DNA of 64,000 bases. Source: Christiangramia flava JLT2011 (GTDB taxonomy: Bacteria > Bacteroidota > Bacteroidia > Flavobacteriales > Flavobacteriaceae). Position numbers and translations under genes: made by a program. The notes under the pieces are model-generated. The model was not told where the DNA came from. It worked only from the letters and a program-made list of their open reading frames with translations, and ran no database searches. How positions within the stretch are numbered: the first letter of the stretch is position 1; each line of letters starts with the position of its first letter. The stretch spans positions 2,008,001 through 2,072,000 of the forward strand of contig NZ_CP016359.1 in assembly GCF_001951155.1 (NCBI RefSeq), written 5' to 3'. This document shows, one piece after another, positions 2,875-23,238 of this stretch.

Positions 2875-3210
2875 ATGTCTAAAAATTATTATGATCCGGC
2901 AGATCTTCGGAAGTTTGGGGAGATCACTGAGTGGAGTGAAGAACTGGGAACGAAATTTTTCGATTATTACGGGAAAGTTTTTGAGGAGGGAGCACTGTCT
3001 GCAAGAGAAAAATCCCTGATCGCACTGGCGGTAGCACACGTGGTAAAATGTCCGTATTGTATCGATGCTTATACCAAAGATGGTTTGCAGCGCGGGATAA
3101 CCAAAGAGGAAATGATGGAGGCGGTTCATGCGGGCGCAGCCATCGAAAGTGGAGCAACCTTAGTTCATGGCGTGCAAATGATGAATAAATATAAGAAGCT
3201 GAGTATGTAA
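2875..3210 (+). CDS. Arsenosugar-associated peroxidase-like protein (AhpD/CMD fold)
   Basis: A 111-residue protein of the carboxymuconolactone decarboxylase/AhpD-like family. The central segment KCPYCIDAY, residues about 60-68, carries the CxxC pair typical of AhpD-type alkylhydroperoxidases, preceded by a conserved helix LSAREKSLIALAVAHV. A small subfamily of this fold is annotated as accompanying the ArsS radical SAM protein in arsenosugar clusters, and here ArsS follows 40 bases downstream on the same strand. It probably acts in the cytoplasm in redox protection or in handling a thiol/arsenic intermediate; the exact reaction is not established. It is the first gene of the plus-strand run. 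Confidence 0.8.
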   Translation: MSKNYYDPADLRKFGEITEWSEELGTKFFDYYGKVFEEGALSAREKSLIALAVAHVVKCPYCIDAYTKDGLQRGITKEEMMEAVHAGAAIESGATLVHGVQMMNKYKKLSM

Positions 3211-3250
3211 GCAATTTTTGCTTTCAGCTACTAATTTTTAAAACCAATTT

Positions 3251-4309
3251 ATGTCAGTTAAATCGCTAAAGGCGCGGAAAGATGATCTTTCCAGTCCTAA
3301 AAAGCAATTGGAAATATTAGATAACGGAATGTTTGAAGATGGTGATCTGCCTCGATTTAAAGATAAGATTGCCAACACAGGTCATAAGCCGTTCAAGCCA
3401 GGAAAACTGGAAATCCTTCAGATAAATCTCGGCTATATGTGCAACCAGGTCTGTTCGCACTGCCATGTTGATGCAGGTCCCGACCGAAAAGAGATCATGA
3501 CCAGGGAAACCATGCAACAGTGTTTGGAAGTGATCAAAACTACCGGCGCGCATACCCTGGACCTAACGGGGGGAGCTCCAGAAATGAATCCGGAGTTCAG
3601 GTGGTTTGTGGAGGAAGCTTCAAAAGCCGGAATTAAAGACTTTATCGTTCGTTCCAATCTTACTATAATCCTGGCGAATAAAAAATACCACGAACTACCG
3701 GAATTCTTCAAAAAGCACAACGTTCACGTGGTGTCTTCTCTTCCGTTCTATAAAAGAGAGAAAACAGACAAGCAGCGTGGCAGCGGAGTTTTCGATAAAT
3801 CGATAAAAGCTCTTCAAATGCTGAATAAGGTTGGTTATGCTAAGGAAGGAACCGGTTTAAAACTGGATCTGGTATACAATCCTGCAGGAGCTTTTCTGCC
3901 AACCAATCAGAAGGCCATGGAAAATGATTTTAAAGTTGCTTTGAAAGAGGACTTTAATATCGATTTTGATAATCTTTTTGCGATTACAAACCTGCCAATT
4001 AGCCGATTCCTGGAATATTTAATAGCTTCTGAAAATTATGAAGATTATATGTATGCACTGGTAGATGCCTATAATCCTGCAGCTGTAGAAAATGTGATGT
4101 GCAGAAACACCATTTCGATAAGCTGGGACGGCTGGCTGTATGATTGCGATTTCAACCAGATGCTCGAGCTGAAGGTAGACAGTAAAGTGAAGCATATCAG
4201 TGAATATAACGAGGACTTGCTGAATGATCGGGAAATCGTGATTTCTCAGCATTGTTACGGTTGTACTGCCGGTGCTGGAAGTAGTTGCCAGGGAACTGTA
4301 GCCGAATAA
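3251..4309 (+). CDS. arsS: Radical SAM protein ArsS (arsenosugar biosynthesis)
   Basis: A 352-residue radical SAM enzyme. C64-x3-C68-x2-C71 is the motif binding the [4Fe-4S] cluster that cleaves S-adenosylmethionine, followed by the TGGAPE segment (GGE-like) near residue 107. The C-terminal part is Cys-rich, with C335, C338 and C346, as in the radical SAM/Cys-rich family now linked to arsenosugar synthesis, some members of which contain selenocysteine; here the positions are cysteine. By family knowledge the enzyme transfers the 5'-deoxyadenosyl group of SAM to a dimethylated arsenic, giving an adenosylated arsenosugar precursor. It sits between the peroxidase-like gene and a TIGR04282-like gene, a typical neighbourhood. 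Confidence 0.88.
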   Translation: MSVKSLKARKDDLSSPKKQLEILDNGMFEDGDLPRFKDKIANTGHKPFKPGKLEILQINLGYMCNQVCSHCHVDAGPDRKEIMTRETMQQCLEVIKTTGAHTLDLTGGAPEMNPEFRWFVEEASKAGIKDFIVRSNLTIILANKKYHELPEFFKKHNVHVVSSLPFYKREKTDKQRGSGVFDKSIKALQMLNKVGYAKEGTGLKLDLVYNPAGAFLPTNQKAMENDFKVALKEDFNIDFDNLFAITNLPISRFLEYLIASENYEDYMYALVDAYNPAAVENVMCRNTISISWDGWLYDCDFNQMLELKVDSKVKHISEYNEDLLNDREIVISQHCYGCTAGAGSSCQGTVAE

Positions 4310-4313
4310 CTTT

Positions 4314-4991
4314 ATGACCGGGAAAACCGCCATACTCATTTTTGCCAATTCTTCTTCGGAAGAACTGAAGACCAAGAAAATCCAAAGGTCAGCACTGCTA
4401 TTTGACCATCTTAATCAAAAGGTGCTGAAAATTGCCAGAAGCACCGGTCTGCCTTATTTCCTTTTTTCAGAAGAAGAACAGAAAGGCTCTAATTTTGGTG
4501 AGCGGTTTACGCACGCTATTGCCTCTGTTTTTCAGAAAGGCTATCAAAATGTGATTAGTATCGGGAATGATACACCGGGGCTGTCAAAAAACCATATTCT
4601 AAGAACCGCGACCTCGCTTAAAAACAATGGAATGGTTCTGGGGCCATCTTTTGATGGGGGTTTTTACTTAATGGGTATGCGGAAGGAGTTGTTCTGTAAA
4701 AAACAATTTCTGAAACTGCCGTGGCAAACGGCTCAATTAACTAAATGCATCAGGCGCTTACTCGGCAAAAAGTTCGAAAACATTGTTTGGCTGGAGCGCC
4801 TTAGAGATATAGATAACGAATCTGATCTTAAGCATATCGTCAATACATTTCAGTTTGTTGGAGATGTATTACGAACTATAATTCTTAAAATTACGAAGTC
4901 TGCACAGACATTTTTCTCCGAAATGATTCAAGTGCAGCAACTCGTGTTCATTCGTCATTTTTTTAATAAAGGTTCGCCTTTTCAGATTTAA
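4314..4991 (+). CDS. Divergent TIGR04282/DUF2064-like glycosyltransferase
   Basis: A 225-residue protein starting 4 bases after arsS. The central region, with SNFGERFTHAIASVFQKGY, the acidic-site segment ISIGNDTPGLS near residues 82-92 and GPSFDGGFYLMGM near 112-124, matches the DUF2064/TIGR04282 nucleotide-diphospho-sugar transferase-like family. The N-terminal segment that in the second copy (12424-13047) reads GKVKTRLA is not preserved here, and the last 45 residues resemble nothing in that copy. It is therefore a diverged paralogue in the same locus, either specialised for a different donor/acceptor or partly degenerate. The role in glycosylating an arsenic-containing or other ribose derivative is inferred from family and context. 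Confidence 0.75.
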   Translation: MTGKTAILIFANSSSEELKTKKIQRSALLFDHLNQKVLKIARSTGLPYFLFSEEEQKGSNFGERFTHAIASVFQKGYQNVISIGNDTPGLSKNHILRTATSLKNNGMVLGPSFDGGFYLMGMRKELFCKKQFLKLPWQTAQLTKCIRRLLGKKFENIVWLERLRDIDNESDLKHIVNTFQFVGDVLRTIILKITKSAQTFFSEMIQVQQLVFIRHFFNKGSPFQI

Positions 4992-5035
4992 ACCTGGATC
5001 ATAAAACAAATCTGAAACCTTTAAGAGGCTAACCA

Positions 5036-8000
5036 ATGAAATATATTCTTGTAGGCATTGCCATGTGCCTGTCATTACCAATTTTTGCACAGCAACGCGT
5101 CACGGGTAAAGTCACCGATAGTTCGGGAGCCGCGCTGCCATTCGTTAATGTTATTCTGAAAAATTCGCCTGTTGGAACCACAACAAATTCCGACGGCTTG
5201 TATGAATTGCAATTAACCGATCTCAACGGAGATCTGGAATTTTCTTCGCTCGGTTTTGAAAGTAAAACAGTATCTATTAACGGTCGCGATCGAATAAATG
5301 TTAGCCTGATCGAGGCTGAAGCATTGCTAAACGAAGTGGTGATCACCGCTCTGGGGCTGGAACGCGAAACAAGGGAGCTTGGTTACGCGGTTCAAAGTGT
5401 GGAAAGCGGTGAAATAAGTGAGGTAAAATCTCCTAATTTCTTAGATAATTTAGGCGGAAAAATGGCTGGTGTTACGGTCAGTCAGGGTGCAACCGGAGTC
5501 GGCTCTTCCACTAAGATCGTTATTAGGGGAGAAGCATCCTTTTCTAATAATAACCCGCTTTTTATTGTAGATGGCACTCCTATAAATAATAATACAGTTT
5601 TCCCTCGAACATCTGAAGCTGCTGCCGGTTTCCAGGAAGTAGATTTTGGTAACGGTGCAATGGAGGTCAATCCTGATGATATTGCTTCGGTTTCTGTACT
5701 GAAAGGTCCCAGTGCCGCTGCACTGTATGGTACGCGGGCATCTAATGGGGTGATCATAATTGAAACGAAAGATGGTTCAAAAGCTCAGGGAATGGGAGTG
5801 AGTATTAATTCCAGCGTATTTATTGATACACCATTTCAGCTGCCAAAATTTCAAAATGAATATGGTCAGGGAAATTCTAGAGAATTTGAGTTCGTGGATG
5901 GTCTTGGCGGCGGTGTGAACGATTTGATCACTTATAGCTGGGGGCCAAGGTTGGATGCAGGTAACATGATCCCGCAATTTGATAGCCCTGTAATGCTTGC
6001 TGACGGTACCGTGGTTCGTGGTGGGGATACCTCGGTTTATGGGAATGAAGCTATTTCTGCTACACCTTTTGTTTCGCATCCAGATAACCTGAAAGATTTT
6101 TACCGAACTGGCGTTACCACGATCAATAACGCGGCAGTATCATCTGGTTTTTCCAATGGAAATTACCGCCTCGCCTTCACCGATCTTCGCAGTGAATCAA
6201 TTTTACCAGGTGTAGATCTCGACAGGCAGACGGTTGCCGCAAAATTGAATTTCAAACCTTTAAAAGGACTGGTAGTAAATGCGACTGTTAATTATGTCAA
6301 TTCTGGCAGTGATAATAGGCCTGCTAACGGTTACGGTTCAGAAAACCTGAATTATTCTTTGGTTGCCTGGGGACCTCGATCTCTAAACATAAACAGTTTG
6401 AAAGATTACTGGCAGCCTGGGCTGGAAAATATTCAGCAGTTTTCGTACAACTATACTTATTTTGATAATCCTTATTTCATCATGTACGAAAACACCAATT
6501 CCTTCGGAAGAGACCGTGTTTTTGGGAATATTTCTGCAAAACAGCAGATCACACCAAATCTAAGTCTGCACATTCGTTCGGGAATGGATTATTCTTCAGA
6601 ATTGCGGAAATTTAAAAGAGCTTTCAGTTCAAACAGGTTTAAAAATGGAGCATACGGTGAACAGGAAGTAGTTTTTCGTGAAGTGAATACCGACTTTTTG
6701 CTGAATTACAACCGAGATTTCGGAATCTTTTCCGCAGATATTTCCCTTGGTGGAAACAGACTGGACCAATATGCTTCCAACAAGCAATCGCAAGCTTCAA
6801 CCCTTGCACAGCCCGGAATTTTTAAGCTCACCAATGCAGCATCGCCGGTGGAAATTTACCAGTACGAATCAGAAAAACGCATCAATAGCTTCTACGGAAT
6901 TGCAAAATTTGGTTACAAAGATTTCTTATTTCTGGATGTTACGGGCAGAAATGACTGGTCGAGTTCGCTTGCCACACCATTTTCGGTAGATAACACATCG
7001 TTCTTTTATCCATCTGTTTCCTCTAGTTTTATTTTGTCTGAAGTGACCGATCTTCCAGAGGCAATTTCTTATGCACAATTGAGGGCCAGCTGGGCGCAGG
7101 TTGGGAATGACACTGATCCCTATCAGACCACAGGAGCTTTTGTTGCACAGACGCCATATTTGTCTCAGCCAACTTTCAGCGATCAGGATTTTATTGCGAA
7201 CCCTAATTTAAGACCGGAACAGACCACTTCTTTTGAAGTTGGTGCGGATATCAGGTTTTTTAGGGATCGCCTGAGTTTTGATCTCACATATTATAATGCG
7301 CTGACAGAAGATCAAATACTCTCTTTGCCAATCGGAATTTCTTCAGGATACACCCAAAAAGTGGTAAATGCTGGTAAAGTGCGGTCAAAGGGTGTTGAGA
7401 TCATTGCCGGGGCTGTGCCTGTACTTTCAGATAATTTCAGGTGGGATACAAAGATCAATTTCAGCAGAAATATTTCCGAAGTAGAAGAACTGCCGCAGGA
7501 AGCCGGACGTCTTACCCTGGCTTACAACAGGGTTTATGACAATCCTGACCAGACCGTTTGGTTGCAGGTGGAAGAAGGTGGAAGAATTGGTGACCTCTAT
7601 GGAACGGGTTATCAAAAAACTGATGACGGGAGATTTATTTTAACTGAAGATGGCCGTTATATCGCGAATAATGACCTGCAAAAACTTGGGAATTACAATC
7701 CTGATTTCATGATGGGAATTAATAATGAGTTCAGTTACAAAAACTGGAATCTCTCATTTTTATTTGATTGGAGACAGGGCGGAATTCTGGTTTCCAGAAC
7801 GCTTTCTCTGGCAGCCGTTGGTGGACAGTTGGAAGAGACCTTGCCTGGCAGGGAAGACGGAATTGTGCCAAGCGGAGTAGTAAATGTTGGCACGCCAGAA
7901 AACCCGACCTATGTAGAAAACACCACGCGTGTTTCGGCAGAATCTTATTACCGTCAATTCTATGATCGCAACCATGAAGAAAATAATGTTTATGATGCTT

Positions 8001-8251
8001 CCTATTTGAAGCTGCGCCAGTTTTCGCTGGGATATACTTTTGACCTGAAAAAGAATGCTCTTGGATTTATGAAAGAAGGCGGGACGGTGAATTTGGCTTT
8101 GATCGGCCGTAATCTTTTTGCCTTCAGTGAGATTCCACATTTCGATCCGGAGCAATTGGCGGTTCAGGGAAATGGTTTTGTTAGCGGGGTGGAAGATATG
8201 TCTTATGCCACCACAAGAAGTATTGGCTTTAAAGCCGGAATTAATTTTTAA
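5036..8251 (+). CDS. SusC/RagA-type TonB-linked outer-membrane transporter
   Basis: A 1071-residue outer-membrane porin-like transporter with an N-terminal signal peptide ending near residue 19 (IFAQQ), a carboxypeptidase-regulatory-like beta domain (VTGKVTDSSGAALPFVNVIL), a plug domain with the family segment VSVLKGPSAAALYGTRASNG around residue 222-241, and a long beta-barrel with a C-terminal aromatic residue (final Phe). It is coupled to the SusD-like lipoprotein 11 bases downstream and together they form a TonB-powered uptake complex. Unusually for a SusC/D pair, no polysaccharide-degrading enzyme or sigma/anti-sigma pair flanks it; it is embedded in the arsenosugar-type genes, so its substrate is probably a small compound handled by that locus. 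Confidence 0.93.
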   Translation: MKYILVGIAMCLSLPIFAQQRVTGKVTDSSGAALPFVNVILKNSPVGTTTNSDGLYELQLTDLNGDLEFSSLGFESKTVSINGRDRINVSLIEAEALLNEVVITALGLERETRELGYAVQSVESGEISEVKSPNFLDNLGGKMAGVTVSQGATGVGSSTKIVIRGEASFSNNNPLFIVDGTPINNNTVFPRTSEAAAGFQEVDFGNGAMEVNPDDIASVSVLKGPSAAALYGTRASNGVIIIETKDGSKAQGMGVSINSSVFIDTPFQLPKFQNEYGQGNSREFEFVDGLGGGVNDLITYSWGPRLDAGNMIPQFDSPVMLADGTVVRGGDTSVYGNEAISATPFVSHPDNLKDFYRTGVTTINNAAVSSGFSNGNYRLAFTDLRSESILPGVDLDRQTVAAKLNFKPLKGLVVNATVNYVNSGSDNRPANGYGSENLNYSLVAWGPRSLNINSLKDYWQPGLENIQQFSYNYTYFDNPYFIMYENTNSFGRDRVFGNISAKQQITPNLSLHIRSGMDYSSELRKFKRAFSSNRFKNGAYGEQEVVFREVNTDFLLNYNRDFGIFSADISLGGNRLDQYASNKQSQASTLAQPGIFKLTNAASPVEIYQYESEKRINSFYGIAKFGYKDFLFLDVTGRNDWSSSLATPFSVDNTSFFYPSVSSSFILSEVTDLPEAISYAQLRASWAQVGNDTDPYQTTGAFVAQTPYLSQPTFSDQDFIANPNLRPEQTTSFEVGADIRFFRDRLSFDLTYYNALTEDQILSLPIGISSGYTQKVVNAGKVRSKGVEIIAGAVPVLSDNFRWDTKINFSRNISEVEELPQEAGRLTLAYNRVYDNPDQTVWLQVEEGGRIGDLYGTGYQKTDDGRFILTEDGRYIANNDLQKLGNYNPDFMMGINNEFSYKNWNLSFLFDWRQGGILVSRTLSLAAVGGQLEETLPGREDGIVPSGVVNVGTPENPTYVENTTRVSAESYYRQFYDRNHEENNVYDASYLKLRQFSLGYTFDLKKNALGFMKEGGTVNLALIGRNLFAFSEIPHFDPEQLAVQGNGFVSGVEDMSYATTRSIGFKAGINF

Positions 8252-8262
8252 AGGAATTAGCA

Positions 8263-9705
8263 ATGAAAAAAGTAGTTTATATATCAGCAATTTTGATTTT
8301 GATTCTTTCAGCGAATTCCTGTACCAAGGATTTTAAGGAGATCAACACCAATCCTAATGCACCGCTGGAAGTGGAGCCTTCTTTATTGCTTCGTGAGGTT
8401 ATTTATGATTACGGCGAGCAAATGTCTTATGAAGGTTTTGTGGCAGGTAATCTATTAGGGCAATATTTAACAGCCCTGGATTTTAACCTTTTTGACCGTC
8501 ATGCACTTAAATCTCCGCAATTAGGTGGTAATCCCTGGCCGGTTATCTATACCAATTTACGGGATAACGAAATCATTTTGCAACAATCACAAAATGAGCC
8601 TGCCTACAGGGTTTATGAAGGTCCGGCTTTGATCTTAAAGGCTTATATGGCTGCGGCTCTTACAGATCTTTATGGCGATGTTCCTTATTATAATGCTTTT
8701 AGAGGAAAAGAACTTACTACGACTCCCGCATACGATGCGCAGGAAGATATCTATTTAGGTGAAGGAGGAATTCTTGATAACCTAGCAAAAGGAATCGCTG
8801 CGATTCAGGCGTATGAAGGCAGTATTCCACTGGAAGGTGATATTTTATTCAATGGCGATCTAACTAAATGGGTTCGTTTTGCCAATTCTCTTCGAATTAA
8901 ACATCTTATGCGAATTTCCTCGAAAATGGATGTTTCGGCAGAACTTCAGCAAATATATTCGGAGGGAGATTATATCATGAATAACCAGCAGAATGCCGTT
9001 TTTGATTTTACTTCCGGTGAACCGAACAGCTTCCGAATGGAGCAATTAAGAGTTGGTGATTTTAATAATTTTGTGATGGCTGAAACGATGGACGAAATTC
9101 TTTCTGAATTAAATGATGCTCGGGTGGCAGTTCTTTTCCGTCCAACAGCCAATGATGGCAACACCTATAACGGTCTCATAAATGGTATTGACGCTTCGCA
9201 AACCTCTATTTCTCCAGCAGATTATTCCTATGCTGGAATGATCTTTCGCGAGAACACGGCAATGCTGGATGCTAATTTTCTAACAGCCTGGGAAACGAAA
9301 TTCTGGCTGGCAGAGGCTGCCGAAAAAGGGTATATTTCGGCCGATGCGGAAATGCTTTACAACGAAGGAGTGATGCAGGCTTTCGACTATTGGAACACGC
9401 CTTTACCAGGTGATTATCTGGAAGGTCCTGCGGCTTATGATGCAGGGGAGAATCCTTTGGAACAGATCATTACCCAAAAATGGATCGCCAATATGATAAA
9501 CGGCTACGAAGGCTGGATAGAATGGAGACGAACGGGCTTTCCTAATTTAAAACCCATTTCTGCCAGTCTGAATAATGATCTTTTGCCTGTGCGCATGCCG
9601 TATCCTGCGGAAGAGGAAGCTTTAAATGCTGAAAACTATGATCAGGCAGCCGAAAATACGAATGGTAACAGCATCAACGCGCCGGTATGGTGGGACAGCG
9701 AATAA
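8263..9705 (+). CDS. SusD/RagB-family outer-membrane lipoprotein
   Basis: A 480-residue surface lipoprotein. The signal peptide ends in a lipobox (SANSC, Cys20), followed by the family segment EINTNPNAPLEVEPS. The body is the helical, TPR-containing fold of SusD-like proteins, with the typical late segment QKWIANMINGYEGWIEWRRT near residues 406-425, in which a Trp-Arg-Arg stretch is often conserved in the SusD-like_2 group. It is the ligand-capturing lid of the SusC transporter immediately upstream. The stop lies 7 bases before the sodium:solute symporter, supporting a co-transcribed import route from the cell surface to the inner membrane. Confidence 0.92.
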   Translation: MKKVVYISAILILILSANSCTKDFKEINTNPNAPLEVEPSLLLREVIYDYGEQMSYEGFVAGNLLGQYLTALDFNLFDRHALKSPQLGGNPWPVIYTNLRDNEIILQQSQNEPAYRVYEGPALILKAYMAAALTDLYGDVPYYNAFRGKELTTTPAYDAQEDIYLGEGGILDNLAKGIAAIQAYEGSIPLEGDILFNGDLTKWVRFANSLRIKHLMRISSKMDVSAELQQIYSEGDYIMNNQQNAVFDFTSGEPNSFRMEQLRVGDFNNFVMAETMDEILSELNDARVAVLFRPTANDGNTYNGLINGIDASQTSISPADYSYAGMIFRENTAMLDANFLTAWETKFWLAEAAEKGYISADAEMLYNEGVMQAFDYWNTPLPGDYLEGPAAYDAGENPLEQIITQKWIANMINGYEGWIEWRRTGFPNLKPISASLNNDLLPVRMPYPAEEEALNAENYDQAAENTNGNSINAPVWWDSE

Positions 9706-9712
9706 TTTATAA

Positions 9713-11068
9713 ATGCTCATAGATTTATCTGAAATAAACCCGGTTTACTGGCAATGGTGGCTGCTGATATTTTCCAGCATTGCCTTATTTATCATTTCTC
9801 CAAGAGCGCGATCTAAAAACCAGTTTTTTAGTGCCACGCTGGGAAAAAAGGCTCCCGGCTTTTTAACGCTCACGGGAAGTCTGATCATTTCCTGGGTTTT
9901 TGCCAAAAGTATTACCAATGCCGCCAATCTGGGGCTGGACTTCGGGATTGTTGGTGGTCTGGCTTATGCCGGTTACTACCTTTCTTTTGCTGTAGCTGGT
10001 GTGGTGATCTATTTATTACGAACGAAGGGCGGTTACAGTAGTATTCATCACTTTTTAATTTCGAAATTCGGAAGAGGCGCGATTGCCATTTTTTCCATTT
10101 TGATCAGTATTCGTTTGTTTAATGAAGTATGGTCCAATACCATGGTGATTGGTAGCTATTTTGGCGATATTGGAACATCTGAATATTATTGGTCGATTCT
10201 TGTCTTTACAGGTCTGACACTGGCCTACGCTATAAAAGGCGGGTTAAGCAGTTCTATTTTTACCGATGTGATCCAGATGGTTCTTTTTGGTTTGATGCTT
10301 TTTGTGATTCTCGCCTGTATTTTTAGTATTGGTGAACTGGAAGTTTCTGAAGTGATAAATTCCGGAACCTGGAGCATGTCTACCGGACTGAATTTACTCC
10401 TGGCGGCACTTTTACAATCCTTCAGTTATCCTTTTCATGATCCTGTGTTGACCGATCGAGGCTTCATTAGCAATCCCAAAATTACATTAAAGAGCTTTCT
10501 GTATTCCAGTGTCTTCGGCGGACTTTGTATCGTACTTTTCAGCATAATTGGTGTTTACGCACAAAAAGAAGGAATGGCAGGTCAGGCTGCTGTTGAGGTA
10601 GGAAAAGCTTTTGGTGTTGGAATATTGCTGATCATTAATTTTATAATGATCACTTCTGCTGCCTCCACACTCGATTCTACATTTTCTTCCTCTTCAAAAT
10701 TATTGTCGGTAGATCTGAAATTTGGGAAAACAGTAAGAATAGGGAGGCTGGTGATGATCGGCGTGGCAGTTTTGGGTACGATCCCAATTTTCCTAGAAGC
10801 CGAAATTCTTTCAGCAACGACTATAAGTGGAACCATGGTCATTGGTTTGACCCCGGTTTTTATTTTCTGGAATAAAAAGGTTCCGAAAATTAGCTTTTAT
10901 TTGAGCGTTTTCTGCGGATTATTTTTCGGGTTGCTGCTCGTTTTTGAAACTTTTCCCAAAAACCTGATTTTAACCGAAGGCCCTTATGCAGAGCTGTTAT
11001 GGATCAATGTTTGGGGAATTTTAAGTTGTATAATCTTATTCTTTATTCCGAAATGGATAAAAAAATAA
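9713..11068 (+). CDS. Sodium:solute symporter family transporter
   Basis: A 451-residue inner-membrane protein with about 12-13 hydrophobic segments. The segment GGLSSSIFTDVIQM near residues 176-189 is the conserved loop of the SSF family (sugar, nucleoside, proline and related sodium symporters). It starts 7 bases after the SusD stop and its 3' end overlaps the start of the metallophosphoesterase-like gene by 16 bases, so the transporter is translationally linked to both neighbours. By position it should move the compound brought in by SusC/D across the inner membrane. The substrate is unknown; an arsenosugar, a riboside or a polyol acceptor are possible by context only. Confidence 0.88.
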   Translation: MLIDLSEINPVYWQWWLLIFSSIALFIISPRARSKNQFFSATLGKKAPGFLTLTGSLIISWVFAKSITNAANLGLDFGIVGGLAYAGYYLSFAVAGVVIYLLRTKGGYSSIHHFLISKFGRGAIAIFSILISIRLFNEVWSNTMVIGSYFGDIGTSEYYWSILVFTGLTLAYAIKGGLSSSIFTDVIQMVLFGLMLFVILACIFSIGELEVSEVINSGTWSMSTGLNLLLAALLQSFSYPFHDPVLTDRGFISNPKITLKSFLYSSVFGGLCIVLFSIIGVYAQKEGMAGQAAVEVGKAFGVGILLIINFIMITSAASTLDSTFSSSSKLLSVDLKFGKTVRIGRLVMIGVAVLGTIPIFLEAEILSATTISGTMVIGLTPVFIFWNKKVPKISFYLSVFCGLFFGLLLVFETFPKNLILTEGPYAELLWINVWGILSCIILFFIPKWIKK

Positions 11069-11877
11069 ATGATATAGGAGAGTTGTCTGGAAAAATTCTC
11101 GTTTTTGGGGGAGTTTACAGCAATCTTCAGGCTTTGCAAAGCCTGCAAGAACTGGCTGAAGATCTTGATATTTCTCCGGAAAACTGTATTTGCACGGGCG
11201 ATATAGTCGGTTATTGCTCGCAACCCGAGGAAACTATCCAGTTTTTCAGAAGTTGGGGAGCACAAACGATTGCCGGGAATGTGGAAATCCAGTTGGCGAA
11301 TGATGAGGAGGATTGCGGATGCGATTTTCGCGAAGGTTCGCGTTGTGATGACTTTTCCAAAGAATGGTATCCATTTGCGAAAATGATGCTTTCAAAAGAA
11401 TCGGTTAACCGGATGAAGAATATCCCTGAACACATTCAGTTTAGGTATGCCGGGAAAAAGGTTTTTGTGGTGCACGGTTCATTTTTCAATACTTCAGAAT
11501 TTATTTTCAAATCAACCAGCTGGGATAAAAAACAGCAAAATTTCGATCATACGAAAAGTGATATCATCCTGGCGGGGCATTGCGGTTTGCCATTTTCAGA
11601 TTCTAAAAACGAAAAACTTTGGATCAATCCTGGGGTTATCGGGATGCCGGCCAACGACGGCTCAAACAAGACCTGGTATGCGATCTTGGATGATAGCTCC
11701 AGTAATTTAGTTGAATTTCAGCAGCTGGAATATGATCACGTAAAAGCCAACGAGTTAATGCTTAAAAATAACCTGCCTGCTGCATATGCAGCTACTCTTA
11801 AAACTGGAATTTGGGATAATATGGAAATTCTTCCAGCCGAGGAAGCGTCCAGGCAGGGTGAATTGATCAGGTTTTAG
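11053..11877 (+). CDS. Metallophosphoesterase-fold protein with altered metal ligands
   Basis: A 274-residue calcineurin-like phosphoesterase-fold protein. The start at 11053 (MDKKIND) is preferred because an earlier in-frame ATG at 10999 lies far inside the symporter gene. Family landmarks are recognisable, but several metal ligands differ: the usual D-x-H motif reads G-V-Y in ILVFGGVYSNLQAL, the GD motif is intact in CTGDIVGY, the GNH motif reads GNV in IAGNVEIQ, VVHGS keeps its His, and the final GHxH reads AGHCG. It may bind a single metal, use other ligands or be a non-catalytic binding protein. It sits in the arsenosugar-type locus, whose members could need removal or recognition of a phosphate group. 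Confidence 0.78.
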   Translation: MDKKINDIGELSGKILVFGGVYSNLQALQSLQELAEDLDISPENCICTGDIVGYCSQPEETIQFFRSWGAQTIAGNVEIQLANDEEDCGCDFREGSRCDDFSKEWYPFAKMMLSKESVNRMKNIPEHIQFRYAGKKVFVVHGSFFNTSEFIFKSTSWDKKQQNFDHTKSDIILAGHCGLPFSDSKNEKLWINPGVIGMPANDGSNKTWYAILDDSSSNLVEFQQLEYDHVKANELMLKNNLPAAYAATLKTGIWDNMEILPAEEASRQGELIRF

Positions 11878-11923
11878 ATTACCATAACATCTACCGCCTG
11901 AATATTTTCGTAACTATTAAAAA

Positions 11924-12424
11924 ATGATGAAATTATATATAAACCTGATAGTGATCCTTTTCGGCCTGAACCTGGCTCACGGCCAGCGTGATCTCAGGCA
12001 TTTGCTTGAGAAATACAATAATCAGGAAGTGCCTTATGTATCGGTTCAGGAATTGAAAATGATGCAGACTAATCAAAAAGTGCTGGTTGCAGATGCAAGG
12101 GAGAAAAAGGAATATGATGTTAGTCATCTGCCTCAGGCCGAGTTTATTGGTTATAAAGAATTTTCCATTGAAAAGTTTTCACAGAAATTTAAAAATAAGT
12201 CTGCGCCCATCGTGGTATATTGCTCGATAGGTATCCGTTCTGAAAATATCGCTGAAAAGATCAGGAAAGCCGGTTATTCTAATGTATCTAATTTATACGG
12301 TGGAATATTTGAATGGAAAAATACCGGTTATGACGTTTTCAGGAATGGAAAGCCCACTGATAGTGTGCATGTTTTTTCTAAAAACTGGGCTAAATGGCTT
12401 ACGAACGGTAAAAAAGTATATTAG
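11924..12424 (+). CDS. Exported rhodanese-like sulfurtransferase
   Basis: A 166-residue protein with an N-terminal signal peptide ending near residue 20 (NLAHG), so it is probably periplasmic. A single rhodanese domain spans about residues 38-135: VLVADAREKKEYDVSHLPQA, then the active-site loop with C100 in YCSIGIRS, whose six-residue CxxxxR form is that of sulfurtransferases. It could carry persulfide sulfur on Cys100. The gene ends with TAG overlapping the GTG start of the next gene by one base, so translation of the two is coupled. In an arsenic-related locus a thiolation or thiol-redox role is plausible but unproven. Confidence 0.85.
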   Translation: MMKLYINLIVILFGLNLAHGQRDLRHLLEKYNNQEVPYVSVQELKMMQTNQKVLVADAREKKEYDVSHLPQAEFIGYKEFSIEKFSQKFKNKSAPIVVYCSIGIRSENIAEKIRKAGYSNVSNLYGGIFEWKNTGYDVFRNGKPTDSVHVFSKNWAKWLTNGKKVY

Positions 12425-13047
12425 TGACCTCAGAACAATCAGAAAAAAATCTTCTTTTAATCTTTACTAAAAATCCGGTGGCTGGAAAAGTCAAAACCAG
12501 GCTTGCAAAAGATGTAGGAGATAAAAAAGCACTGGAGATTTACCAGTTTTTATTAGATCATTCCGTTAAATTCACATCAAAAGTCGTTGCGACCAGGCAG
12601 GTTTGGTATTCCGATGAGATCAATAATAGTGATATCTGGGATAATGATCTTTTTCAAAAGAAAGAACAATTGTCCTCTCCGGACCTTGGTGAAAGGATGC
12701 AACATGCTTTTGAAAATGGATTCAGTGAGGGTTTTGAGAGAATTCTAATCATCGGGACAGACCTCTATGATATTTCTGAAGAAGATATCCGGCTTGCTTT
12801 CGAGTCTCTTAATAATCATGATTTCGTTATTGGCCCGGCAACTGATGGCGGATACTATTTATTAGGAATGAAATCCTTAAATTCGGAAATATTTAAAAAC
12901 AAAAATTGGGGAACCAATACAGTGCTGGAGAATACGCTTCAGGATTTGCAAGAGTACCAGCTGAAGTTGATGGAGCCCCGAAATGATGTAGATTATCTGG
13001 ATGATATTAGAGATCATCCGGCCTTCCAAAAATTTATAGAATTATGA
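12424..13047 (+). CDS. TIGR04282-family arsenosugar biosynthesis glycosyltransferase
   Basis: A 207-residue cytoplasmic protein of the DUF2064/TIGR04282 family. The nucleotide-binding N-terminus reads FTKNPVAGKVKTRLAKDVG (residues about 14-32), the acidic site is in LIIGTDLYDIS and the substrate segment is GPATDGGYYLLGM. The start codon is GTG at 12424, overlapping the TAG of the rhodanese gene, and the stop overlaps the ATG of the phosphorylase gene (ATGA). Family models associate it with arsenosugar loci as a sugar/aglycone transferase. It is the canonical copy; 4314-4991 is a diverged paralogue. Confidence 0.85.
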   Translation: MTSEQSEKNLLLIFTKNPVAGKVKTRLAKDVGDKKALEIYQFLLDHSVKFTSKVVATRQVWYSDEINNSDIWDNDLFQKKEQLSSPDLGERMQHAFENGFSEGFERILIIGTDLYDISEEDIRLAFESLNNHDFVIGPATDGGYYLLGMKSLNSEIFKNKNWGTNTVLENTLQDLQEYQLKLMEPRNDVDYLDDIRDHPAFQKFIEL

Positions 13048-13856
13048 CAGACCGTATAGATGAATCGGTAGATTATTTGAAATCCCGCGGCTTCGGGGAG
13101 CCGGAAGTGGGGATCATCCTGGGCACCGGCCTTGGGCAGTTGCTGGATGATGTTGAGATCGAGAAAGAAGTAAGCTATAATCATATTCCCTATTTTCCCA
13201 CGGCCACGGTCGAATTCCATAAGGGCAAGCTCATCTTTGGCAGTCTCGAAGGGAAAAAGGTTGTAATCATGCAGGGAAGATTTCATTTATATGAAGGCTA
13301 TAGCCTTTTTGACGTAACCTATCCCGTTCGCGTCATGAAGCGTTTGGGAATGAAGCGTTTGCTGGTTTCCAATGCTTCCGGTGCGATCAATCTAAACTTC
13401 GGAAAAGGGGAGTTGATGCTCATCGAAGATCATATCAATTTGCAGGGTGGTTCGCCGCTGGCATTCCATGGAGTTGAAAAACTTGGGGAACGTTTTGTAG
13501 ATATGAGCGAACCCTACAATAAAGAGATGAACGATATTTTTGAAGTGGCTGCCAAAAAGCACGATATCACGCTTCATAAAGGTGTCTATGCATCGGTCTT
13601 AGGTCCTCAACTGGAAACACGGGCGGAGTACCGCTATTTAAAAATGATCGGCGCAGATGCTGTGGGAATGAGTACCGTTCCTGAAGTGATCGTGGCTAAT
13701 CATTTGCATATTCCTGTTGCCGCAATTTCAGTTATCACAGATCAGGGCGATCCTTCGAACCTTGAAAAGGTAGATATTCAGGATATTCTGGCCAATGCCG
13801 CGAAAGCAGAACCCAGTATGGTGAAATTATTTAAAGAATTACTTCAGCAAGTTTAA
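13044..13856 (+). CDS. Purine-nucleoside phosphorylase
   Basis: A 270-residue trimeric-type (PNP/MTAP class) phosphorylase. Recognisable segments are GIILGTGLGQL (phosphate loop, residues about 22-32), MQGRFHLYEGY near 76-86, VSNASGAIN near 111-119, and the late nucleoside-binding stretch containing VGMSTVPEVIVANH. It catalyses phosphorolysis of purine nucleosides to base and ribose-1-phosphate. In arsenosugar loci a PNP is expected to remove adenine from the adenosylated arsenical made by ArsS, leaving the arsenoribose-1-phosphate for glycosylation. The start overlaps the preceding stop (ATGA) and ArsM begins one base after its stop, so it is embedded in the operon. Confidence 0.92.
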   Translation: MTDRIDESVDYLKSRGFGEPEVGIILGTGLGQLLDDVEIEKEVSYNHIPYFPTATVEFHKGKLIFGSLEGKKVVIMQGRFHLYEGYSLFDVTYPVRVMKRLGMKRLLVSNASGAINLNFGKGELMLIEDHINLQGGSPLAFHGVEKLGERFVDMSEPYNKEMNDIFEVAAKKHDITLHKGVYASVLGPQLETRAEYRYLKMIGADAVGMSTVPEVIVANHLHIPVAAISVITDQGDPSNLEKVDIQDILANAAKAEPSMVKLFKELLQQV

Positions 13857-13857
13857 T

Positions 13858-14829
13858 ATGAGCAGTTACTTAGAAACAACCAAGAATGTCTATCGAGATG
13901 CGGCCTTAACGCCAGAAGTGGGGCTTTGCTGCACCACGAATCCTATTTGGGAACTTCCGGGGTTGAAAATTCCGAAGATCATGCAGGAAATGAATTATGG
14001 CTGCGGAAGCACCGTTCATGCAAGGGATCTTACCAATAATCCGCGAATTCTTTATGTTGGTGTTGGCGGAGGTATGGAACTGCTGCAATTCGCCTATTTT
14101 TCTCGTCAGAAAAATGGTGTGGTGGGCATTGATGTGGTTGATGAGATGCTGGAAGCTTCCAGGAAGAATTTTAAAGTTGCTGAAGAACAGAACCCCTGGT
14201 TCAAATCGGAATTTGTGGACCTGAAAAAAGGTGATGCTACAGATCTCCCTGTTGAAGACAATTCTATCGATGTTGCCGCACAGAACTGTCTTTTCAATAT
14301 TTTCAAAACGGAAGAACTTACGAAAGCGCTTAAGGAAATGTATCGCGTACTGAAGCCTCATGGCAGGCTCGTGATGAGCGATCCAACCTGCGAACAGGAG
14401 ATGAACGAGGAACTGCGTAATGATGAGCGCCTGCGAGCTTTATGCTTAAGCGGAAGCCTTTCAATAGCCGATTATGTTAAGGCGTTGACAGATGTTGGTT
14501 TCGGAACAATTGAAATTCGCGCAAGAAAACCTTACCGAATTCTGGATCCTAAAAACTATCCTACCGAAGAACTCGTATATATAGAGTCTATTGAAGTTGC
14601 TGCGATTAAAGATCCAATGCCCGAAGACGGACCATGTATTTTTACCGGTAAGGCGGCGATCTATTATGGAGAAGATGATCATTTTGATGATAAAAAAGGT
14701 CATGTTTTACTCAAAAATCAGCCACTGGCAGTATGCGATAAAACTGCGGGTGCACTGGCAGCGCTTGGACGAGACGATATATTCATCAGCGAATCTACTT
14801 TTCATTATGATGGTGGAGGCTGCTGCTAA
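13858..14829 (+). CDS. arsM: Arsenite methyltransferase ArsM (arsenosugar type)
   Basis: A 323-residue SAM-dependent methyltransferase. Motif I is ILYVGVGGGMELLQF, residues about 64-78, followed by the acidic GIDVVDEML motif II. Cysteines C24, C25, C49, C144 and C178 are spread as expected for an As(III)-binding methyltransferase, and the protein ends in a GGGCC tail (C322, C323). By family knowledge the enzyme methylates trivalent arsenic, giving the mono- and dimethyl species that ArsS adenosylates. It starts one base after the phosphorylase stop; the DUF547 lipoprotein follows 10 bases downstream. A thiol or selenium substrate in vivo cannot be excluded. Confidence 0.88.
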   Translation: MSSYLETTKNVYRDAALTPEVGLCCTTNPIWELPGLKIPKIMQEMNYGCGSTVHARDLTNNPRILYVGVGGGMELLQFAYFSRQKNGVVGIDVVDEMLEASRKNFKVAEEQNPWFKSEFVDLKKGDATDLPVEDNSIDVAAQNCLFNIFKTEELTKALKEMYRVLKPHGRLVMSDPTCEQEMNEELRNDERLRALCLSGSLSIADYVKALTDVGFGTIEIRARKPYRILDPKNYPTEELVYIESIEVAAIKDPMPEDGPCIFTGKAAIYYGEDDHFDDKKGHVLLKNQPLAVCDKTAGALAALGRDDIFISESTFHYDGGGCC

Positions 14830-14839
14830 AAATTAAACT

Positions 14840-15640
14840 ATGAAAAAGTCATTTTTAAATCTTTCAGTTTTTGTAATAGGTATTTGTCTTTGCGCGTCCT
14901 GCTCGTTGCTTTCCAGCGCGGGACTGACAAGTAAAGGCCTGCCTTCTACACAGGTGCCAGATAAACTTACTTCTACCACGGCAAATTCCGCTGTAAATGT
15001 GGATCACGCTATATGGGACGAGTTACTGAAAAAACACGTGAAATCTAACGGAATGGTAGATTACAAGGATTTTAAAAATGACCGGGAGAAACTGAATAAA
15101 TACCTGGAAATGTTATCTAACCAGGAGCCAACGAAAGACTGGTCTGTACAGGAACAATTGGCCTATTACATCAATTTGTACAATGCCTATACGGTTGACC
15201 TGATCTTAAAAAATTATCCGGTGAAAAGTATCAAGGATATTAAAGGAGCATGGACCAACGATTTTGTGAAAGTCGGCGATAAAACTATTTCGCTGGGAGG
15301 AATTGAGAATAGTATTCTTCGGAAAATGAAGGAACCGCGAATTCATTTTGCCATTAACTGCGCTTCCATGTCCTGCCCAAAATTGATGAACGAGGCCTAT
15401 ACCGCTGCGCATATCAATGAACAATTGGATAAAGCAGCCATTGAATTTATCAATTCCGATAAAAATGATATTTCGAAAAATTCAGCGAAACTTTCTTCAA
15501 TTTTCGACTGGTATAAAAAGGATTTCACTGAAAACGGAACTGTAATAGATTATGTGAACAAGTTCTCGAATACCAAGATCAATTCGGGAGTGAGAATTAC
15601 TTATAAAGATTACGACTGGAATTTAAATGAAATTAAATAG
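14840..15640 (+). CDS. DUF547 lipoprotein
   Basis: A 266-residue lipoprotein with lipobox LCASC (Cys near residue 21) and a DUF547 domain over about residues 50-260. Landmarks are AIWDELLKKHVKSNGMVDYKDF, QLAYYINLYNAYTVDLIL and HFAINCASMSCPKL. The HxAINCAS segment with clustered His and Cys is typical of DUF547, a papain-like or enzymatic domain of unconfirmed function. DUF547 genes commonly lie next to arsenosugar-type glycosyltransferase genes. The stop lies inside the start of the next gene (14 bases overlap if ATG 15627 is used). The biochemical role is unknown. Confidence 0.85.
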   Translation: MKKSFLNLSVFVIGICLCASCSLLSSAGLTSKGLPSTQVPDKLTSTTANSAVNVDHAIWDELLKKHVKSNGMVDYKDFKNDREKLNKYLEMLSNQEPTKDWSVQEQLAYYINLYNAYTVDLILKNYPVKSIKDIKGAWTNDFVKVGDKTISLGGIENSILRKMKEPRIHFAINCASMSCPKLMNEAYTAAHINEQLDKAAIEFINSDKNDISKNSAKLSSIFDWYKKDFTENGTVIDYVNKFSNTKINSGVRITYKDYDWNLNEIK

Positions 15641-16328
15641 GATGCTGAGTATCATCATCCCGGTTTTTAATGAAGAGGCACAACTTCCGAAGCTGCTGGA
15701 ACATTTATCGGTTGCTTCCGCAGGATTGATAAAGGAAATAATCGTGGTGGATGGTGGTAGTACCGATCGTACAGCCAGAATTGCAAAAGATCATCCAAAG
15801 GTTTTTTACCTTCCTTCAGATAAAGGGCGGGCGGTGCAAATGAACACGGGTGCCAGTATCGCAAAAGGTGAAATCCTGTATTTTCTTCATGCTGATAGTT
15901 TTCCTCCAGTGCATTTTGATCAGCTTATAATTGATGCGGTCAAGAAGGGAAAGAAAGCCGGTTGTTTTCAAATGAAATTTGATAAAAATCACTGGTGGCT
16001 TAACTTAATGGGCCAATTCACCAAAGTGAACCATATTTCGTGTCGGGGAGGCGATCAGTCTTTATTTGTCGAAAAGGACTTATTCCATGAAATAGGAGGT
16101 TTTGATGAAAATTATAAGGTCTATGAGGATAATGAGATAATAAGGCGCCTATATATTAAAAAGCAATTTACGGTTATCAAGCAGTGGATCACTACTTCTG
16201 CCAGGCTCTACAATCGTCTTGGCGTTTGGAATACCCAACGACTTTTTATAGAGATTTACTGGAAGAGAAGGCGAGGTGCTACAGCAGAAGAACTCTACAG
16301 CCATTACTACAAGCGGGTTAACGCTTAA
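15627..16328 (+). CDS. TIGR04283-family arsenosugar biosynthesis glycosyltransferase
   Basis: A 233-residue GT-A glycosyltransferase of family 2. The N-terminal SIIIPVFNEEAQLPKLLEHL and VVDGGSTDRTARIA are the nucleotide-sugar binding part; YFLHADSFPP carries the D-x-D-like metal-binding site near residue 92; the GGDQSLFVEK segment follows near 138-147. TIGR04283 proteins are the usual partners of TIGR04282 proteins. The ATG at 15627 overlaps the DUF547 gene; a second ATG at 15642 (MLSIIIPV) is equally possible. The 3' end overlaps the convergent GH-like gene by 11 bases. It probably joins a sugar or glycerol-type aglycone to the arsenoribose; that substrate is inferred. Confidence 0.88.
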   Translation: MKLNRMLSIIIPVFNEEAQLPKLLEHLSVASAGLIKEIIVVDGGSTDRTARIAKDHPKVFYLPSDKGRAVQMNTGASIAKGEILYFLHADSFPPVHFDQLIIDAVKKGKKAGCFQMKFDKNHWWLNLMGQFTKVNHISCRGGDQSLFVEKDLFHEIGGFDENYKVYEDNEIIRRLYIKKQFTVIKQWITTSARLYNRLGVWNTQRLFIEIYWKRRRGATAEELYSHYYKRVNA

Positions 16329-17361
16329 ATTTCCTGTAGTATTCTTTTATGGTATTTTCCGCAGGTTTATTTTGCGGAGTAAAACGATCGTTTTCAAGTC
16401 CGCCGCTGGTTTCATGCTGATGCCATTTCCAAAGAAACCCTCCTGCAAACCAGTTTTCTGTCCAGAATTCCTGGTAGGTGGCTTCCAGAGCGCGAGCTTG
16501 TAAACCATGATTCGTTTCAGTTTTTTCCCTGCCCGAATGCCAGGGCTCTTTTACAGCAAAATCAATACTTCGGTAACCGTATTCTGTAAAGAGAACGGGT
16601 TTGTCATATTCCTCGGAAAGATCTTTCAACATCGATTTATGTTTCTGCCAGCCCGACCTGATTTCCTGTAGTTTCGGTGCGACTTTGTCGCTTAATGGGA
16701 AGTATGCATCGACACCAATATAATCCAGCGATTTCCAAATTTCTGTTTGATCTACTTTATCCCAGTTTTCAGCATAAACAAGTTTGCCATGATATTGATC
16801 ACGAATTTCAGCAATCAATTCACCCCAGAATTCAGGCCTGTTTTTTACAAAATTGTAGAGTTCTGTGCCGATACAGAAAAGTTCCACCTGGTGTTTTTCG
16901 GCGATTTCAACATACAGCAAAATATATTCCCGGTAAGAGTTTTCGAATTGAGCCCAGTCTTGATCAGTTTTAAAATTAAGATCTCCGGTAAATGATCCAT
17001 TCCGAAGCCAGATGTGTGGCTTCATCATCACTTTTATGTTATGCTGATGCAATTTGTCTATTGCCTGTTCAATGCCTTCCACCCGCTCCCCAAACCATTG
17101 CCTGTCTGAATTAAAATGTAACTCGGGAGAATCTTCCGAACTAAGAAAAGCATAGGGCATCAACGCAGCGGCGTTTGCGTTGATATCTATCAATCGGTTT
17201 GCCTGTTTTTCCGTTAGGCTATCGCGAGAAGCGACCAGGCTTATCCCATTGTACTTTTTCAGTAATTGATCAGATTGGCAGGAACTGGCAGAAACCCAAA
17301 GCAACATCAGCAAAAGCATGCTGGAAAAATCATTTCTAAAAAGCAATTTGGTAGTTTTCAT
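16318..17361 (-). CDS. GH113-like TIM-barrel glycoside hydrolase lipoprotein
   Basis: A 347-residue lipoprotein with lipobox SASSC (Cys near 28). The body is a TIM barrel of the GH113/GTA type: KLHQHNIKVMMKPHIWLRNG near 101-120, the acid/base segment LFCIGTELYNF with Glu near residue 161, and the nucleophile-strand segment KPVLFTEYGYRS with Glu near 262. These two Glu positions are as expected for a clan-A retaining glycosidase. GH113 includes beta-mannanases; substrate cannot be read here. It is encoded opposite to the arsenosugar-type genes, convergent with TIGR04283 by 11 bases and divergent from the FAD-reductase gene. It probably acts at the periplasmic or outer face of a membrane. Confidence 0.8.
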   Translation of the reverse strand: MKTTKLLFRNDFSSMLLLMLLWVSASSCQSDQLLKKYNGISLVASRDSLTEKQANRLIDINANAAALMPYAFLSSEDSPELHFNSDRQWFGERVEGIEQAIDKLHQHNIKVMMKPHIWLRNGSFTGDLNFKTDQDWAQFENSYREYILLYVEIAEKHQVELFCIGTELYNFVKNRPEFWGELIAEIRDQYHGKLVYAENWDKVDQTEIWKSLDYIGVDAYFPLSDKVAPKLQEIRSGWQKHKSMLKDLSEEYDKPVLFTEYGYRSIDFAVKEPWHSGREKTETNHGLQARALEATYQEFWTENWFAGGFLWKWHQHETSGGLENDRFTPQNKPAENTIKEYYRKFKR

Positions 17362-17466
17362 CTTAATTGAATACGGTCTTGGGATTCTGCTATATTTCTG
17401 CGTACTTTACTATGCAGGACTTCCGCAATTCTCAGCGACAGTTCATTGCCAAATTATGAAATTTTC

Positions 17467-20339: not shown

Positions 20340-21043
20340 TGGAAATTATTGATCTGAGCCAGGAAATTTACGATGGAATGCCTGTCTATAAAGTTCTTCC
20401 TGAAGTGAAAATCTGCATGCATGCTTCGCATGAAGAATGGAATGGGGAAGAGATCATTGGCGAGCCAACTCCAAGTGTATATAAGCTGGAAATGAGCGAA
20501 CATACCGGCACGCATGTGGATGCTTTAAGCCATATGCGGAAGGAGGATAAAGGTAAATCTATAGACACCATGCCGCTGAGCATGTTTTATACGGAGGGTC
20601 TTTGCCTTGATTTTTCTGAAAAGGGATTGAAGGAGATCATTACTTCTGAAGAAATTCAGCAAAAACTAAAAGATATCGATGAAACTCTGAAAGCTGGCGA
20701 TACTATTTTGCTCCATACGGGTCATTATCAAAAGCATTTTAATACTGAAAACTGGCCCGACGGACCGGGAATTTCAGCTGAAGCCGCCAGGTGAATGGGA
20801 AACCATGGGATCTCAGCATTTGGTGTGGAGACCATGTCGCCAGGCGTTCCGAAGATTTCCAATAAAGAAGTCCACCACATTTGCGGGGAATTGGGATTTA
20901 CGCATTATGAAAATATGATCAACCTGGATAAACTGGTGGACCGAGGCCGTTTCAGATTTTGTGCTTTTCCGCTTAAAATACGAGGAGGAACCGGTTCGCC
21001 TGTAAGAGCCGTGGCAATTTTCGACCAATCACAAAATTTTTAG
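20339..21043 (+). pseudogene. Cyclase-family (kynurenine-formamidase-like) gene with in-frame TGA
   Basis: A metal-dependent hydrolase of the cyclase/formamidase fold, interrupted by one TGA. Codons 1-151 carry the metal-binding motif H55-x-GTH59-x-D61-xxx-H65. The TGA is codon 152 (20792-20794), after GPGISAEAAR, and the same frame continues with MGNHGISAFGVETMSPG and a normal C-terminus to 21043. In relatives this position is normally Trp (AARW-L type), so TGG to TGA is the simplest explanation. Total length of 234 codons is family-typical. Either the gene is dead, the stop is read through, or the base is an error. The start overlaps the ferredoxin stop by one base, so it belongs to that operon. 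Confidence 0.8.
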
Positions 21044-21049
21044 CAACTC

Positions 21050-23214: not shown

Positions 23215-23238
23215 CTATTTTAGCGGCAAAGCTTTTTG

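Follow-up and report, generated by a model that had tools for sequence, protein, structure and literature searches.

The window analysed here is a 64,000-nucleotide stretch of Christiangramia flava JLT2011 DNA (positions 2008001-2072000 of a 4.0-Mb genome in one contig), in which a locus at 2875-16328 consists of core arsenosugar genes and a five-gene insert at 4314-11877. The insert carries a degenerate TIGR04282 paralogue, a SusC/SusD pair, an SSF-like symporter and a metallophosphoesterase-fold protein (MPE). With about even confidence, we propose that it is a modular cassette that serves the pathway of the radical SAM protein ArsS as a TonB-dependent importer, probably of an organoarsenical. 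The coupling of the cassette to the ArsS pathway is well supported, and we regard it as very probable. The cassette genes are as follows.

4314-4991, + strand: cassette gene 1, degenerate TIGR04282/DUF2064 paralogue (99 bits, cut-off 134)
5036-8251, + strand: cassette gene 2, SusC/RagA-type TonB-dependent outer-membrane protein (TIGR04056, 590.6 bits)
8263-9705, + strand: cassette gene 3, SusD-like_2 lipoprotein (PF12771, 299 bits)
9713-11068, + strand: cassette gene 4, SSF-like membrane symporter (TIGR00813 31 bits, PF00474 20.8 bits)
11053-11877, + strand: cassette gene 5, MPE, calcineurin-like fold protein (start from alignment)

Linkage of the cassette to arsS in the Flavobacteriaceae

The family sample comprised 299 genomes of Flavobacteriaceae, and ArsS was found over the cut-off in 215 of them. 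An MPE search at E 1e-15 yielded matches in 46/299 genomes, of which 40 had a close orthologue (E below 1e-100; 57-64% identity, the window itself aside) and six had only a distant relative near 30% identity. All 40 genomes with a close orthologue have ArsS (Fisher 7.6e-7). The original prediction had proposed a check on whether the SusC/D-symporter-phosphoesterase block is conserved near arsS or lies mostly apart from it in relatives. When 38 stretches fetched around close orthologues, one reused stretch and the window were counted, arsS was in the same ~20-kb stretch as the MPE gene at 39 of the 40 loci, and the sole exception was genome G087, whose core locus is elsewhere in the genome. The outcome that would have counted against the prediction, a block mostly apart from arsS, was not seen in the family. 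The symporter was present in 40/40 of these family loci, and susC together with susD in 37/40.

The neighbourhoods of arsS were also inspected from the other side. Sixty of the 215 were fetched, hand-picked from the better-scoring part of the list, and the MPE was absent from the stretch in 57. The ArsS and rhodanese matches of genome G266, of the same genus as the window, are 13 bases apart, and the MPE is absent from that genome. Because the core occurs without the insert in these 57 stretches and in G266, the insert behaves as a presence/absence unit; because its order and orientation recur in dozens of genomes, it is not a chance arrangement. A scan of named genomes, overlapping the family sample, found 275 relatives, and the best 80 gave a similar picture: the symporter was present in 80, susD in 74, susC in 73, and arsS was in the stretch in 74. 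These relatives, strains of Winogradskyella and Maribacter among them, belong mostly to Flavobacteriaceae-type genera, and one, Frigoriflavimonas, belongs to the Weeksellaceae.

Two layouts were distinguished. The insert of type I loci lies between arsS and the rhodanese gene, as in the window, and that of type II loci (nine family loci) lies upstream of the peroxidase-like gene and arsS. Beside the transport and MPE genes, type II loci showed only the degenerate TIGR04282, peroxidase-like and ArsS genes; the window's purine nucleoside phosphorylase (PNP), ArsM, DUF547 and TIGR04283 proteins had no match in the nine fetched stretches.

Co-occurrence beyond the family

Wider samples of the phylum (395 genomes) and the class (295 genomes) were then considered. 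ArsS was found in 47/295 class genomes and the cassette in eight, all of which have ArsS (Fisher 2.4e-7); the six of these that lie outside the family gave p 7.3e-6 on their own, with nine visible family genomes taken out. All co-occurrence p values are nominal, since the genomes are related and draft contigs end. The arsS gene did not adjoin the cassette in five of the eight class genomes, being 68 and 89 kb away in two and on another contig of a draft genome in three. The co-occurrence is therefore not mere proximity, and the strongest sign of a shared function is that the two occur together without being neighbours.

Nine cassette loci of other families were examined. They have susC, susD, the symporter and the MPE in 9/9 (the MPE gene of L261 in opposite orientation) and the degenerate TIGR04282 copy in five. 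Two of the nine adjoin arsS (L239 and L241) and seven do not, and ArsS was over the cut-off in 9/9 genomes. Linkage between the cassette and arsS is looser outside the family. As originally predicted, the transport block appears dedicated to the pathway in that its functional tie to ArsS is strongly supported by linkage and co-occurrence; import and cargo would be further steps of interpretation.

Presence of ArsM in cassette genomes

The arsenosugar-type ArsM (NF038099) was found in 19/40 cassette genomes of the family versus 149/175 other ArsS genomes (p 1.6e-6), and with one genome per genus the counts were 17/32 versus 125/145 (p 9.4e-5). Twenty of the 21 cassette genomes without NF038099 also had no match to the general ArsM NF008823 at E 1e-20, and one had it; completeness is only 75% for one of the 21. 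Outside the family, NF038099 was present in 1/9 cassette genomes versus 19/36 other ArsS genomes (p 0.03), with five of the nine drawn from the phylum sample or both samples and the 36 from the class sample alone, and the counts became 3/9 versus 30/36 when weaker matches were included. The substrate of ArsS is trivalent dimethylarsenic. ArsS adenosylates arsenic in arsenosugar biosynthesis, according to an excerpt of PMC12159101, which cites a 2021 ArsS study. The frequent absence of ArsM alongside the cassette is suggestive, a lead toward an imported methylated arsenical and not proof of one. Likewise, the ArsM-less cassette genomes favour an organoarsenical cargo over a riboside or acceptor, though not decisively.

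The SusC/SusD pair and the symporter

The SusC protein has a TonB-dependent barrel, a plug and a CarbopepD-like N-terminal domain (PF07715, PF00593, PF13715, TIGR04056), and susD (PF12771) lies directly downstream with an 11-base gap, so that the two form a SusC/SusD pair. Ligand import is what SusC/SusD biology would lead one to expect, and we consider it probable for this pair. A tree was built from a hand-picked set of 24 cassette SusC proteins together with 16 long SusC-like proteins, out of 32 barrel matches, from the window's genome. The cassette proteins were monophyletic (support 1.0), and the best-scoring paralogue among the 16 was 36% identical. Cassette SusC is one orthologous group. 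The L260 cassette carries a more divergent pair (SusC 46%, SusD 40%).

The PDB matches of SusD carry annotations as SusD homologues or glycan-binding proteins, or are unnamed, and do not decide the cargo; neither does the one weak match of the symporter there, a choline transporter (E 0.0078). The sodium:solute symporter of the original prediction is better described as SSF-like, since its scores for TIGR00813 (31 of 184 bits) and PF00474 (20.8 of 22.8) are both under the cut-off.

The cassette shares its outer-membrane import architecture with the SusCD/RagAB uptake systems of Bacteroidota, with a SusC over the TIGR04056 cut-off and an adjoining SusD-like_2 lipoprotein. It differs from them in being tied to ArsS instead of glycan enzymes, and in the SSF-like symporter and degenerate phosphoesterase-fold protein that follow. 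A second comparison is BtuB-BtuG, the vitamin B12 uptake system of Bacteroides, in which, as described in an excerpt of PMC10404256, a TonB-dependent receptor and a surface lipoprotein likewise serve a scarce small nutrient that is not a glycan. Its receptor belongs to another family than cassette SusC, and it has no arsenic link.

MPE, a calcineurin-like fold with an altered metal site

The MPE probably starts at 11053, a start chosen by alignment, instead of 10999. The complete dimetal site of calcineurin-like metallophosphoesterases consists of DxH, GD, GNH/D, H and GHxH. The predicted metallophosphoesterase fold was borne out, whereas half of the dimetal site is lost. In 39/39 family and 9/9 other-family orthologues, other residues stand in place of DxH and of the last His of GHxH; the same holds for 80/80 named orthologues, which were found with patterns covering positions 20, 22 and 55 and are no independent test at these positions. 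G20, Y22, V77 (I in 1/39) and G178 stand where a complete site has its D, its H, the GNH-type residue and its last His, and the metal-site residues D50, N76, H141 and H176 are kept. Cys55, Cys88, Cys90 and Cys98 are invariant. Compared with the streptococcal asymmetric Ap4A hydrolase SapH (3qfm) and the metallophosphoesterase 3rqz, the MPE has G20, Y22, V77 and G178 at metal-site positions and has gained Cys55 and Cys98. Judged by these residues, the MPE may not be an enzyme. An active phosphodiesterase for arsenosugar phosphate was also considered, but this role was dropped since every orthologue examined has lost half of the metal site; some residual activity is possible.

At seven of the nine type II family loci, the MPE and the TIGR04169 peroxidase-like protein are in one open frame with a short linker (profile check by hidden Markov model on three loci). 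The same shared frame was seen in seven of the 80 named loci, an overlapping set, and in L241 of another family. It holds an internal ATG and may therefore also allow separate translation.

Two core loci (L140:15662-16393 and L112:16770-17528) also encode, on the opposite strand near GH113, another kind of metallophosphatase-like protein, in which GDIHG and GNHD motifs are present.

The degenerate TIGR04282 copy

Two TIGR04282-like proteins had been predicted. The second copy scored over the cut-off (204 bits); the first, cassette gene 1, stayed below it and has no GKxKTRL motif, aligning to profile positions 70-189 of 189. The glycine of GKxKTRL is E, D or L in 36/36 cassette copies and G in 29/29 second copies, four of the 40 rows having been dropped from the motif count since their matches were the second copy or a stray stretch. 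The DGG region is retained in the degenerate copy, whose C-terminus is a near-invariant NKGSP (N in 35, K in 34, and G, S and P in 36, of 36); this end did not appear among the columns conserved in the second copy. It accompanies the cassette in 36/40 family loci and lies next to the peroxidase-like gene and arsS without the cassette in 10/57 insert-free loci.

Core genes and neighbourhood

Every gene named in the original prediction was found on the + strand at its predicted position, most of the families over the curated cut-off. The core set begins with the TIGR04169 peroxidase-like protein and ArsS and resumes after the cassette with the rhodanese.

2875-3210, + strand: AhpD-like "arsenosugar biosynthesis-associated peroxidase-like protein" (TIGR04169, 200 bits); core
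3251-4309, + strand: ArsS, radical SAM (TIGR04167, 446.5 bits, cut-off 300); core
11924-12424, + strand: exported rhodanese-like protein (NF045521, 199.9 bits); core, not cassette
12424-13047, + strand: second TIGR04282 copy, GKxKTRL motif intact (204 bits); core
13044-13856, + strand: PNP (NF006054, 333 bits); core
13858-14829, + strand: arsenosugar-type ArsM (NF038099, 574.6 bits); core, absent from many cassette loci
14840-15640, + strand: DUF547 protein (PF04784, 98 bits); core
15627-16328, + strand: TIGR04283 glycosyltransferase (233.6 bits); core
16318-17361, - strand: GH113-like protein; often next to the core locus, whether or not the cassette is there

The rhodanese had been counted as part of the insert; because it follows ArsS directly in 30/57 fetched insert-free loci, it is a core gene. 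The intergenic distances are -16 to +46 bases, a wider spread than the few bases first noted. The window resembles known arsenosugar loci in that ArsS, the arsenosugar ArsM, TIGR04169, TIGR04282 and TIGR04283 are all present over their cut-offs. It differs from them in the extra cassette, found in 40/299 family genomes, 21 of which are missing the arsenosugar ArsM. No known RNA family reached its gathering score in window positions 1-30000.

Downstream, the block at 16318-24594 holds GH113 (-), a disulfide-type oxidoreductase, a polyferredoxin-like protein, two GT2 proteins and a membrane protein. Many relatives retain this block beside their core locus, and it may be part of the pathway. The Cyclase-family (PF04199) frame at 20339-20794 covers profile positions 1-123 of 142 before a stop and may be truncated.

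Variations were seen around arsM in other core loci. A fatty acid hydroxylase-like protein of ~300 aa occupies the place of arsM between PNP and DUF547 in L140:12887-13840 (the only one in which PF04116 was tested), L112:14360-15247 and L163:12923-13849, and a similar protein stands alongside ArsM in L226 and L243; a lipid step of the pathway is possible. The same-family arsenosugar locus L243 also has a major intrinsic protein (aquaporin family, PF00230) between PNP and ArsM at 12787-13452. A second kind of arsS locus, with the peroxidase-like gene and arsS followed by the gene of a ~205-aa protein cluster, was found in 14/16 loci compared (L018, L024, L041, L045, L059, L061, L069, L034, L039, L067, L070, L102, L132 and L049). 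The degenerate TIGR04282 copy is upstream in 8/14 of these, and further neighbours are common to 13.

Arsenic genes elsewhere in the genome

The locus was originally described as having no arsenic efflux, arsenate reductase or ArsR gene. This holds for the locus itself. Elsewhere in the genome, at about 1.286 Mb and thus 0.72 Mb away, lies an ACR3 gene (TIGR00832 match). It belongs to a separate ars group (L279, G000:C1:1278000-1294999, at 8114-11198) with ArsR-, DUF6428-, ArsC- and GNAT acetyltransferase-like genes, these four labels being given by sequence resemblance. The GNAT acetyltransferase is reminiscent of ArsN/phosphinothricin acetyltransferases. In L259, genes matching HTH_5, DUF6428 and SBF by Pfam form a similar group ~5 kb from the cassette.

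Discussion

The gene set, linkage, co-occurrence, fusion frame and residue changes were computed, and from them we infer the import direction, the cargo and a thiol role of the MPE. The SusC/SusD pair would bind a scarce extracellular compound and pass it into the periplasm by a TonB-driven step, and the SSF-like symporter would move it over the inner membrane. There, the cytosolic MPE and the AhpD-like peroxidase-like protein, encoded in one frame in some genomes, may take the compound and pass it to ArsS. The cargo would most likely be a methylated or ribosylated arsenical already, such as an arsenosugar or a conjugate of one, or another donor of dimethylarsenic, and with a pre-methylated cargo, cells without ArsM could still run the pathway. 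We lean slightly toward an organoarsenical as the cargo. The chain as a whole, in which a dedicated outer-membrane importer of methylated or sugar-bound arsenic hands its cargo to a thiol-bearing pseudo-phosphoesterase and ArsS builds arsenosugars in ArsM-less bacteria, is a tentative suggestion. We know of no earlier dedicated outer-membrane organoarsenical import system. Among the literature matches listed, as excerpted, no SusCD or TonB system was reported to serve an arsenical, and the only match that joined "arsenosugar" and "SusD" was an inductively coupled plasma mass spectrometry (ICP-MS) screening paper.

Several observations speak against this proposal or restrict it. Three of the 40 family cassettes are reduced to the symporter and MPE. 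Six of the 80 named loci have no arsS in the stretch: L176 and L191 sit on short contigs that are cut, the cassettes of L197 and L203 adjoin TIGR04282, PNP and ArsM, and no core gene is near the cassette in L152 and L196, with no search made for ArsS elsewhere in these genomes. NF038099 is also absent from 26/175 cassette-less ArsS genomes of the family, and phylogenetic pairing on an ArsS tree of 97 genomes gave 14 independent pairs with four in which the cassette side was without ArsM, none in reverse and ten ties (p 0.125). Since the window's own genome has ArsM, the cassette is not a simple ArsM substitute, and a general replacement of ArsM was not adopted, on this pairing and on the 19/40 cassette genomes that keep the gene. 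Cys47 was present in 7/7, and Cys88 and Cys90 in 6/7, of the canonical MPE relatives compared, so that the thiols are not all cassette-specific, which weakens the case for an arsenic site of thiols peculiar to the cassette. Free arsenosugars and dimethylarsinate are small molecules. Such a cargo would be unusual for SusCD complexes, which are described for large nutrients in an excerpt of PMC7782687.

Larger organic compounds are the normal SusCD cargo, and the cassette may instead import a non-arsenic partner of the pathway, either an acceptor or aglycone (e.g., an algal glycoside, or a glycerol-phosphate or sulfonate conjugate) or a nucleoside. The TIGR04282/TIGR04283 transferase-like proteins and PNP of the locus are possible users of such a partner, and a degenerate TIGR04282 paralogue comes with the cassette in 36/40 family loci. 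These possible users are not matched throughout, as the nine type II stretches have no match to the window's PNP, ArsM, DUF547 or TIGR04283; moreover, the partner that shares a frame with the MPE is the peroxidase-like protein and not a transferase, and import of a non-arsenic partner does not predict the ArsM trend. We regard it as unlikely, though it is the most probable of the alternatives. Siderophore biosynthesis loci usually include a TonB-dependent receptor, and this, together with the strict ArsS co-occurrence in the samples, would fit a pathway that secretes an arsenic compound and a cassette that retakes the compound, or its metal-bound or breakdown form, in the manner of a siderophore receptor. 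Such re-uptake is improbable in our judgement, as no exporter was recognised among the cassette and core genes scanned and 175/215 ArsS genomes of the family are without the cassette.

Still less probable is an ordinary glycan utilisation locus that sits by chance in an arsenosugar locus. SusC/SusD and a nearby GH113-like gene would suit it, but none of the five cassette genes is carbohydrate-active by Pfam, as a polysaccharide utilisation locus would require, and GH113 lies outside the cassette on the other strand and is also present without it. The co-occurrence with ArsS within and beyond the family, on which a chance neighbourhood was likewise rejected, and the single orthologous clade of SusC both argue against it.

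Arsenic in seaweeds is present mainly as arsenosugars (excerpt of PMC5478658). A receptor system found alongside ArsS, in Flavobacteriaceae as in other Bacteroidota, would offer a genetic entry point to the uptake or recycling of organoarsenicals. If the proposed import is true, it would widen the known cargo range of SusCD systems and would explain how genomes keep ArsS without ArsM.

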